DNA of 35,171 bases from Planctomycetota bacterium (lineage in GTDB: Bacteria > Planctomycetota > Phycisphaerae > Phycisphaerales > SM1A02), in assembly GCA_016873115.1 (NCBI GenBank), contig VGYB01000021.1:1-35171 (forward strand), given 5' to 3'. The notes below the pieces were generated by a model that saw nothing but the letters and a program-made list of their open reading frames with translations, made no database searches and was not told the DNA's origin. Positions 4,544 to 14,642 of the stretch are shown one piece after another; the stretch's first letter is position 1, and each line of letters opens with the position of its first letter. The translations under genes and the position numbers were made by a program.

Positions 4544-4560
4544 CCGCGACCCTGCTTCCT

Positions 4561-4642
4561 GCGCATGTGGCGAAATTGGCAGACGCGCCAGCTTGAGGTG
4601 CTGGTGGGGCAACCCATGGAGGTTCGAGTCCTCTCGTGCGCA
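4561..4642 (+). tRNA. tRNA-Leu (anticodon GAG)
   Basis: The acceptor stem GCGCATG pairs with CGTGCGC (one G-U pair). The anticodon stem CCAGC/GCTGG encloses loop TTGAGGT with anticodon GAG at 4595-4597. A long variable arm typical of class II tRNAs and a T-arm with TTCGAGT are present. CCA is not encoded. It should decode CUC and, by wobble, CUU. CUU is the slippery codon of the prfB frameshift site in this same window. Confidence 0.96.
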
Positions 4643-4644
4643 TT

Positions 4645-12253: not shown

Positions 12254-13479
12254 CGGATCCCGGCAACGAAGGCCGCCACACGCTCCATCCCCTTGGTGAT
12301 CTGCTCCTCGCTGCACGCGAAGGAGAAGCGGACATGGTTGCGGGCGCAGTGTCCGAAGTCCTCGCCGGGCACGATCGCCACGGCATGCTCTTCGAGGAGC
12401 GCCTCGGCGAACGCCTGTGCCGAGTCGAGCACGCGTCCGCCTGCGGTGTGCCCGCCGAGCAGCGAGGCGATCGACGGGAAGGTGTAGAAGGCCCCTGAAC
12501 TCGGCGGCGCGACAAGACCCGGAATCGCGGCCTGCAACCGACCGATGAGCTGGGCACGCCGGGCGAACACGGCCCGCATGCGCTCCACTTCGGCCGCACC
12601 GTTGGTCAACGCCTCGACGATGGCCGGAAGCGCAAAGCTCACGATCGAGTTCGTCATCTGCCCCTGCAACTTGATGGTCTCGCGCGTGAAGGCTCCGCGA
12701 TTGCCGGGTGCACAGAGCCAGCCAATGCGCCAGCCGGTCATGGCATACGCCTTGCTCATGCCGTTCACCGTGATGGTGCGGTCGGCCAATCGGGGGTCGC
12801 TGCCGATGCTCCAGTGCGCGATGCCCGGGGTGACCTCGGGGTAGACGAGTTTCTCGTAGATCTCATCGCTGATGACGGTGACCCGGGGATGCCGCGCCAG
12901 CACATCGGCGATGGCACGCATGGACGCCGAAGGCAGCGTGATGCCACAGGGATTCGACGGTGAGTTCAGGATGATCCCGACGGTGCGCGGCGTGATCGCT
13001 CGATCGATCGCCTCGGGCTGCACGATCAGACCATCCTCGAGCCTGGCCGGCACCTCGATGCAGCGTGCGCCGGCGAGTTCCACCAGCGGGCGGTAGCTGA
13101 CCCACGCTGGCGTCGGCACGATGACCTCGTCGCCTGCACCACGCTCGACGAGCACCTGCAGGGCCATGTAGATCGCGTGCTTCGCTCCCGCGGTGATCGT
13201 GACATGCTCGAAGGAGCAGTCGATGCCGTTCTCCGTGCGGTGCTTGTGCGCAATGGCCTCGCGTGCAGACCGATCGCCGGGGGTCGGTGCGTACTTGGTC
13301 TGCCCGGCCTCGAGTGCACGGATCGCCGCGCGCTTGATCGGCTCCGGCGTGTCGAAGTCCGGTTCGCCAACACCGAAGCCCACCACATCGACCCCCTTGG
13401 CCTTCAGCGCCGCGGCCTTCGCGCTGACGGCCAAGGTTGCACTTTCCTTCATGCCCGAGATCGCGCTGCTCACCTGCAT
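12220..13479 (-). CDS. aspC: Class I aspartate aminotransferase (AspB type)
   Basis: This is a pyridoxal-phosphate enzyme that transfers the amino group between aspartate and 2-oxoglutarate. The 419-residue protein is a fold-type I, AspB-like (subgroup Ib) aminotransferase. It has [10 protein letters not shown] near the N-terminus, N176 in NSPSNPCG, D205 and Y208 in ISDEIYEK, the Schiff-base lysine K243 in [15 protein letters not shown], and the substrate-carboxylate arginine in HVRFSFA near the C-terminus. A -10 TACGCT (13487-13492, this strand) ends 7 nt before the ATG. It is divergent from prfB and convergent with nuoB, so it is probably monocistronic. Exact substrate (aspartate versus broader) is inferred from family only. 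Confidence 0.93.
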
Positions 13480-13486
13480 AGACCCA

Positions 13487-13524
13487 AGCGTACAGCCGGA
13501 TGGCCACGCACTGCCCGCTACACT
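13487..13524. promoter_or_regulatory. Divergent -10 elements, aspC and prfB
   Basis: TACGCT (minus, 13487-13492) and TACACT (plus, 13519-13524) each end exactly 7 nt before their ATG (13479 and 13532). The 52-bp gap leaves no room for 5' leaders of ordinary length. Confidence 0.6.
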
Positions 13525-13531
13525 TCAAGCC

Positions 13532-14642
13532 ATGCACTTCGACGCACATGGCCCCGTGCTGGCCGACCTGGGGGCGCGGATCAACGCCATCCGCGACTCC
13601 CTTTAACTACCCGATCAAGGCACGCGAGCGCGACGAGCTCTCCGCGCGCATGAACGAGGCGGACTTCTGGAACGAACCCAAGCGTGCGCAATCGGTCATC
13701 GCCGAGCTGAAGGTCAAGCGCGCCCAGATCGAGCCCCTGGAAGAGGTCATGAAGGGCCTCGAGGATGCCCAGGTCGGCTACGACATGGCCAAGGAGGCCA
13801 ACGATGCCGAACTGCTCGGCGAGATCGACGAGCTCCTCTTCGGCCTCGTGGGCAAGATGGAGAAGGTCGAACTGCAGTCCCTGCTGAGTTCCAAGCACGA
13901 CCACCGCGGCTGCTTCGTCACCCTCCAGGCTGGCGTGGGCGGCACGGAAGCCAACGATTGGGCAGAGATGCTCGAACGCATGTACCAGTACTACTGGACC
14001 ACGATGGGATTCAAGGTCGAGGAGATGAGCCGGACCTATGGCACGGAGGTCGGGATCTCCGAAGTCTCGTACGCCGTCCGCGGACCCTTCGCGTACGGCT
14101 ACATGAGCTGCGAGCACGGCTCGCACCGGCTTGCCCGAGTGAGCCCGTTCAATGCCGAAGGCAAGCGCCAGACGAGCTTCTGCACGGTTGACGTGACGCC
14201 TGAGTTCGAGGAGAGCGATCTGGACATTCCCGAGCGAGACCTCGAGATCGTGCCGTTCGTGCGCGCGAGCGGACCGGGCGGGCAGAACGTGAACAAGGTC
14301 GCGACGGCCATCCGTGTCACCCACATCCCGACGGGGATCCAGGTCGTGGCCAGCACATACCGCGACCAGCCGCAGAACCGCAAGCAGGCCCTGAGCGTGC
14401 TGCGCTCCAAGCTCGAGCAGCTCGAGCAGGATCGTCGCGATGCCGAGATCCTCGCGGCCAAGGGCGGCAAGGTCGAGCGCGGATGGGGCACGCAGATCCG
14501 GTCGTATGTCTTCTACGACAATCGGGTGAAGGACCACCGGACCAACTACGAGGAGGGCAATCCTTCCCATGTCCTGAACGGCCACCTCGAAGCGTTCGTC
14601 GACGCCGAGCTCAAGCGTCGACGAGCCGAGCGCGAGACCTGA
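13532..14642 (+). CDS. prfB: Peptide chain release factor 2, programmed +1 frameshift
   Basis: RF2 terminates translation at UGA and UAA. The gene is in two frames: codons 1-24 (13532-13603) run into an in-frame stop at 13604-13606, and the rest is in the +1 frame from 13605 to 14642. The joined product is 369 residues. The slip site reads CTT TAA C, placing Leu24 next to Asn25-Tyr26, which aligns with the Leu-Asp-Tyr junction of E. coli RF2. The stop-recognition tripeptide SPF is at 204-206 and the catalytic GGQ at 249-251. The stop codon is UAA instead of the usual UGA, and the nearest G-run (13570-13574) is 26 nt upstream, too far to act like the normal Shine-Dalgarno stimulator. The -10 TACACT ends 7 nt before the ATG. 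Confidence 0.95.
13601..13607 (+). promoter_or_regulatory. prfB +1 recoding site CTT-TAA-C
   Basis: Leu-tRNA on CUU can slip forward one base to UUU before the stop codon is read. In the window tRNA-Leu(GAG), which would decode CUU, is encoded at 4561-4642. The stop is UAA, readable by both RF1 and RF2. Confidence 0.85.

Follow-up and report, generated by a model that had tools for sequence, protein, structure and literature searches.

A conserved, covarying hairpin as the likely replacement of the Shine-Dalgarno stimulator at the prfB frameshift sites of the planctomycete class Phycisphaerae

What drives the ribosome into the +1 frame at a prfB site that has UAA in place of UGA and no Shine-Dalgarno (SD) sequence beside it? 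The question is raised by the RF2 gene on the stretch of DNA analysed here (the window: 35,171 nucleotides, positions 1 to 35,171 of contig VGYB01000021.1 of assembly GCA_016873115.1), which comes from a planctomycete of the order Phycisphaerales in the class Phycisphaerae. Direct reading of the sequence agrees with an earlier note on this DNA that frame 0, opened by the ATG at 13532, ends CTT-TAA-C at 13601-13607 and that the body of the gene is in the +1 frame (table 1). This body scores 376.5 bits against a curated RF2 cut-off of 370, and its product would require an obligatory +1 programmed frameshift at CUU-UAA-C. The tRNA-Leu(GAG) for CUU that the same note had placed at 4561 is indeed encoded there (called from 4560). 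The window's genome very likely has an RF1 gene as well, judging from a prfA-like gene on contig 4 (877-1938) that scores 351.9 bits for prfA (curated cut-off 423.25) and 190.1 for RF2.

Table 1. Features of the prfB frameshift region, and the tRNA gene that reads CUU, in window coordinates
Feature	Position	Strand	Remarks
tRNA-Leu(GAG)	4560-4643	+	reads CUU
-10-like hexamer TACACT	13519-13524	+	7 nt before ATG
prfB ORF1	13532-13606	+	24 sense codons and TAA; peptide MHFDAHGPVLADLGARINAIRDSL
GGGG	13571-13574	+	possible stem extension with CTCC 13597-13600; lineage-specific, weakly supported
Hairpin 5' arm CGCGGAT	13575-13581	+	
Hairpin loop	13582-13588	+	7 nt, sequence variable
Hairpin 3' arm ATCCGCG	13589-13595	+	stands where relatives have SD-like sequence
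Spacer ACTCC	13596-13600	+	5 nt, from stem to P-site codon
CTT	13601-13603	+	P-site codon of the slip; with T13604 forms slippery CTTT
In-frame TAA	13604-13606	+	predicted to be bypassed by the +1 shift; followed by C13607
RF2 body, +1 frame	13605-14642	+	345 codons; coordinates include its stop

A sequencing error at the slip site is ruled out: CTTTAAC is present in all eight prfB genes read in the window's genus (the window's own and seven others; G001, which is without an RF2 match, is left out of this count). The check that the earlier note had proposed, a comparison of prfB 5' regions in related genomes, therefore refutes the error it had feared. Its other doubt, that relatives might have a UGA or an uninterrupted prfB, is borne out in part, in other genera of the family, whereas the genus members read are all TAA. 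The family's 27 sites comprise 12 TGA and 15 TAA, and two more members lack one altogether, which makes TAA a variant of the lineage and not an isolated occurrence. Among the 41 genomes of close relatives (the window's own included) we read 38 prfB 5' ends, of which 35 have CTTTRAC and three have no site. All 35 sites have an inverted repeat directly upstream, mostly CGCGGAT-N7-ATCCGCG at 5 nt from CTT, and each of the 35 stems forms at least 6 of its 7 pairs.

Our wider comparison covers 183 genomes from the class and 69 from the phylum's other classes. The former are the ones read among 207 with a usable RF2 match (17 listed genomes and 7 fragments were left out), and the latter were read among 106 with an RF2 match; G001, G018 and G022 have no RF2-level match. 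The class has 173 frameshifted prfB genes (141 with TGA and 32 with TAA) and 10 genes without a site; the other classes have 51 sites (50 TGA, 1 TAA) and 18 genes in which no CTT-stop site stands where one would be expected. In the class, 170 of the 173 frameshift genes, the window's among them, have a C directly after the stop. ORF1 has 23 codons ahead of CTT in 45 of the 48 order members scored and 22 in the other three. The E-site codon is TCC in the window and TCT in 122 of the 173 class genes; TGG occupies this position in 23 of the 173, and is frequent in families f18, f20, f23, f24 and f26 (L047 and L235, for example).

The earlier note's statement that the SD stimulator is missing before CUU is correct. 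No SD-like hexamer precedes CTT in the window, where the best anti-SD duplex over positions -16 to -4 reaches -0.3 kcal/mol, compared with -10.7 kcal/mol for the E. coli prfB motif in the same measure. The anti-SD itself is intact, since the 16S rRNA of the window's genome ends in the canonical GGATCACCTCCTTT. Median duplex energies over the same positions are -0.5 kcal/mol in the window's order, -4.0 in the rest of the class and -5.7 in the other classes. GGG or AGG at -8 to -6 is found at 38 of the 51 other-class sites, whose upstream sequences are for example AAGGACTCTCTT, AAGGAGTCTCTT or GGGGGTATCTT, and in 98 of the 124 class genes outside the order, so that SD may still have a role in that part of the class. 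At the starts of the window's ORFs anti-SD pairing has a median of -4.0 kcal/mol, against -3.5 when shuffled; this near-shuffled value from a small sample (19 crudely called ORFs) agrees with low use of SD.

Upstream of the slip site in the window is a hairpin of 7 bp, CGCGGAT-N7-ATCCGCG (13575-13595), which ends 5 nt before CTT, roughly at the place of the SD duplex in E. coli. The only G-run, 26 nt upstream at 13570-13574, is where the earlier note had located it, but the covarying hairpin whose 5' arm it adjoins was overlooked there; the run may extend this arm. In the window, GGGG could also pair with CTCC and so leave no gap between stem and CTT, an extension that is not general. An outer GAG/CTC extension was tried as a general part of the stem and dropped, as it adds no covariation and is a lineage feature only. 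The stability of the segment 13571-13600 is -15.6 kcal/mol (z -3.12); in longer contexts of 69 or 109 nt the stability is ordinary (z 0.00 and -0.83, respectively), and the hairpin persists in the predicted fold. Rfam covariance models gave no match up to E 5 in 13440-13720.

Stems of at least six of the seven pairs are present in 153 of the 173 class genes (137 have all seven) and in none of the 51 frameshifted prfB genes read in other classes (Fisher p 2e-34, kinship ignored). The 20 class genes with fewer than six pairs belong mainly to families f7, f8, f16 and f19. If any hairpin of at least 6 bp that ends 3-9 nt before CTT is counted, the class has 156 in 173 against 19.7 expected from codon-shuffled sequences, and the other classes have 8 in 51 against 6.3 expected; in at least 138 of the class genes the best one stops 5 nt short of CTT. 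The 3' arm in much of the class is ATCCGGGAC, which keeps GGGA, and in the order it is ATCCGCGAC or ATCCGTGAC with a matching 5' arm. We infer that a weak ancestral SD was first overlaid by the hairpin and later superseded by it.

The hairpin is associated with the frameshift site. Class prfB genes without the site form 4-6 of the 7 pairs (none of the ten has seven and one has six), so that full stems differ between genes with and without a site at a Fisher p of 4.5e-7 (kinship ignored), and site-less prfB genes of other classes form 0-4 pairs in the 15 scored of 18. Presence and absence of the site require at least 3 changes on a tree of 84 RF2 proteins, and the uninterrupted genes are thus the result of few independent events.

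A scan of named genomes was made with one sequence pattern, which largely fixes the stem and leaves one of its pairs as N..N. Each of the 120 matches listed is located where an RF2 reading frame begins; this frame extends to GGQ in 106 cases, runs off the stretch in 13, and is broken in one (L160). The free pair is standard in all 120 matches listed (GC 55, CG 44, GU 16, AU 3 and UG 2). The listed matches bear titles of Phycisphaerae in 73 cases (42 Phycisphaerales, 6 Sedimentisphaerales and 25 with no order) and of Planctomycetota only in 36. The remaining 11 of the 120 listed have titles of another class, another phylum or no phylum; L115, L150, L151, L166 and L226, titled Singulisphaera, Isosphaera, Verrucomicrobia or Actinomycetota, carry hairpin-type prfB genes. 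Eight of the nine outlier-named rows in the RF2 tree are nearest to members of the class, at distances of 0.17-0.63 (L186 and L211 are outside the tree), which suggests that the outlier-titled records are mis-named bins of this class; L226 ("Actinomycetota") is far from all rows at 1.13. In L160 the body frame of a hairpin-type prfB stops after 186 codons and GGQ is in another frame, so it is either a broken copy or an assembly error.

Pairing in the stem is maintained through changes in both arms. In 140 distinct rows 90.9% of the cells are paired, and 62 cells are changed on both sides, compared with a shuffle mean of 20.8 and none of 500 shuffles as high; when the partner is slid by 1-3 columns as a control, pairing falls to 15-49%. 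Two other measures on these rows do not clearly rise above the shuffles, because only two stem pairs vary on both sides: pairs in which both partners have changed number 2 (2.1 in shuffles), and further pair types number 10 (8.1 shuffled, 50 of 500 as high). The two variable pairs change repeatedly. Pair -25/-7 occurs as C-G, G-C, A-U, U-A, G-U or U-G; at -22/-10, A-U occurs in six families and C-G likewise in six, numbers that become five and four once stems of fewer than six pairs are set aside. RNAalifold proposed no structure for all 140 rows, and returned five pairs when rows of fewer than four pairs were left out.

Such a stem might still be a by-product of coding ARI...IRD, if selection acts on the RF2 N-terminus as protein or on a nascent peptide that stalls the ribosome. 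The encoded ARI..IRDSL is conserved, and under a synonymous-codon null (which took 50 of the 51 other-class rows) stems of at least six pairs are already expected in 23 of the order's 49 genes and in 48 of the 124 others of the class, so the encoded residues by themselves favour complementarity. Full seven-pair stems, however, are found in 47 of 49 genes where 3.6 are expected in the order, and in 90 of 124 where 9.3 are expected in the rest of the class, about 13 and 10 times the synonymous expectation, respectively. In addition, there are compensatory double changes at two pairs, and site-less class genes with similar residues (for example RIASIRDSL in L015) do not have full pairing, all of which makes this explanation quite improbable. 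It is likewise unlikely that the stimulator is still an SD, either a GAGG about 27 nt upstream that the hairpin brings near, or the GGGA of the 3' arm paired with the anti-SD. GAGG does directly precede the stem in 39 of the order's 49 members, and the GGG or AGG of the 98 genes in the rest of the class is kept in the 3' arm; but the arm has GCGA or GTGA in 49 of 49 order members, where even the strongest duplex has -4.1 kcal/mol (the median is that given above), GAGG is missing in 10 of the 49 (the window, with GGGG, included) as well as in many stem-keeping genes elsewhere in the class, and the outer GAG/CTC pairs gain nothing from covariation. An upstream SD bridged by the hairpin was rejected as a general solution on account of the many stem-bearing genes that have no GAGG.

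Two further readings, in which the hairpin would have no part in frameshifting, fare worse than these. RF2 could be started in the +1 frame with no shift at all, for example from the ATG at 13500 (an ORF of 380 aa) or from an ATG overlapping ORF1 codons 6-7, given how far the body frame extends upstream without a stop, namely 42 codons or more in 7 of the 8 prfB genes read in the genus and 20 or more in 64 of the 173 genes of the class. In the other 109 of the 173 that frame meets a stop less than 20 codons upstream of the slip, and what is conserved instead is the frame-0 codons and the CTTTRAC site, down to the C after the stop, so that we can very nearly discount this possibility. The hairpin could also be a transcription attenuator, or act on mRNA stability or initiation, as it is near the 5' end of a probably leaderless mRNA and a pyrimidine-rich stretch comes next. 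Our terminator scan found no terminator-like site, which eliminates a transcription terminator as a candidate, and the spacing of 5 nt to CTT is widely kept and full pairing is absent where the slip site is absent, which leaves an attenuating role highly improbable.

The leaderless transcript postulated in the earlier note is plausible in part. The sequence TACACT precedes the window's prfB ATG (table 1), and the best -10-like hexamer starts 11-16 nt before the prfB ATG in 33 of the 48 order genes scored (of 49 members, one has too short an upstream stretch), which suggests that prfB mRNA is leaderless; a scan with the strict sigma-70 consensus found no promoter.

The UAA, which the earlier note had read correctly, is held by all eight members read of the window's genus and by all four sampled members of genus g18, and TAA is at the slip site in 28 of 49 order members. 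TAA and TGA require at least 11 changes on the tree of 84 RF2 rows and at least 17 on one of 171 (which leaves out G156), and the many changes needed on both trees mean that the two flip readily. In the class TAA is found in 31 of 75 genes without a G-run but in 1 of 98 with one, and among the matches listed in the named-genome scan the corresponding figures are 30 of 74 and 1 of 46. When judged by independent pairs on the 171-row tree, this association between TAA and a missing G-run finds no support (12 pairs, median p 1), and for this reason we claim no causal link between the two. L041 and L042 of family f18, outside the window's order, have TAA with a G-run-free stem CGCGAAT/GTTCGCG, apparently a separate case. 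The sole TAA among the 51 other-class sites (L343, genome G256, family f29) keeps an SD-like AAGGAG before AGT CTT.

The recoding stop is not the common stop of the window, since 16 of its 19 crudely called ORFs end in TGA, 2 in TAG and 1 in TAA. High TGA use alongside a kept prfB frameshift, as in the window, runs against a published trend (PMC12421855). That source, a 2025 survey of 12,753 genomes, reports that the SD is hyper-conserved and that 1.4% of 8,164 prfB sites have TAA; in the part of it available to us TAA is described as poorly tolerated and not broadly fixed in particular clades, and the argument is made that in most taxa RF2 may be the principal reader of UAA (PMC12421855). A consensus published for the prfB site is YTT_TRA_C (PMC3711429). 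UAA that is common to all members read of two genera, and that switches elsewhere, speaks against the view, as worded in the available part of the survey, that there is no broad clade fixation (PMC12421855).

The earlier note's guess that the recoding mechanism may differ in this lineage thus finds a candidate, in that the conserved covarying hairpin upstream is the likely replacement stimulator. Given the sites, their conservation and covariation, the association with frameshifting and the low SD complementarity described above, we consider it very probable that this hairpin, by refolding, mimics the SD duplex in driving +1 shifting at CUU-UAA-C. For the refolding on the ribosome, the stimulation of slipping, the feedback and the direction of evolution we infer the following course. 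The stimulator would be an intramolecular hairpin 5 nt upstream of the P-site codon and not an SD:anti-SD duplex. A ribosome reading ORF1 would unwind it, and the hairpin would form again on the side where the mRNA leaves the ribosome, once CUU has reached the P site and the stop codon the A site. Given slow termination, this re-forming duplex would pull or strain the mRNA, like the SD duplex in E. coli, and tRNA-Leu(GAG) would re-pair from CUU to UUU, as is presumed from the E. coli case. The hairpin probably arose in the class with its 3' arm in register with the SD-like sequence of other classes, and in the window's order the stem would have been kept through matched changes in both arms, the 16S-pairing G-run being absent. 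UAA is a recurrent, reversible variant, with which the loop would sense both release factors, or mainly RF2 if RF2 reads most UAA; the earlier note's expectation that UAA blunts the feedback unless RF1 is limiting may thus apply in the first case.

A more sweeping version, which we offer tentatively and which may well prove too strong, is that the whole class has swapped its mRNA:rRNA stimulator for a hairpin in which the former SD is the 3' arm. In the CCGGG lineages this arm might pair by turns with 16S rRNA and with its partner arm; in the order it would have lost the SD function, and UAA would make the circuit sense total release-factor capacity and not RF2 alone.

If a hairpin has indeed taken the place of the SD in most of a class, the requirement would seem to be for a duplex at the exit side, whether or not rRNA is one of its strands; the many natural variants in the class could serve to test how that duplex causes +1 slipping. 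Genes of this type may be mis-called by annotation software built to look for an SD or a UGA. Our literature search, which lacked most subscription papers, turned up no report of a hairpin-type prfB site in titles or abstracts, a result that does not prove its absence from print. A 2016 review gives a 3-nt SD spacing for +1 sites, and its relevant section makes no mention of an RF2 hairpin type (PMC5009743).

Effects of upstream hairpins on +1 shifting have been described in artificial systems. An artificial upstream hairpin gave about 60% of the +1 stimulation by SD at CUUUGA on E. coli ribosomes, and only without RF2 (PMC6321510). In yeast, and at CUUUGA with 70S ribosomes, +1 shifting is promoted by a hairpin that refolds behind the ribosome close to the E site; more stable hairpins have a larger effect, and in the related -1 attenuation assay widening the spacing from 2 to 5 nt removed about half of it (PMC3639245, PMC6321510). 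By this last measure the natural 5-nt spacing of the 7-bp core would be suboptimal. These artificial or viral refolding hairpins share with prfB a position just upstream of the shift site, but their +1 cases are engineered reporters, whereas the prfB hairpin is natural and class-wide (PMC3639245, PMC6321510). The prfB genes of Bacteroidia are like the present ones in that a low-SD lineage keeps the frameshift; there, however, the SD is retained, and is perfect in F. johnsoniae, whereas in the window it is absent and a hairpin is present instead (PMC8710568).

The SD-type prfB of E. coli (AGGGGG UAU CUU UGA C) has the same gene, place, CUUU slip, A-site stop followed by C, tRNA-Leu(GAG) and +1 body. 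It differs in that the window's order has no SD-like sequence beside CUU, has a covarying hairpin there, and uses UAA in 28 of 49 members. Gene 60 of phage T4, where bypassing covers about 50 nt and draws on a nascent peptide and a take-off loop as well, differs from prfB, where the shift is 1 nt. Its 5' stem-loop is nevertheless a parallel, in that there too a pulling action on the mRNA, with a stop codon in the A site, has been ascribed to a stem on the exit side (PMC5009743).
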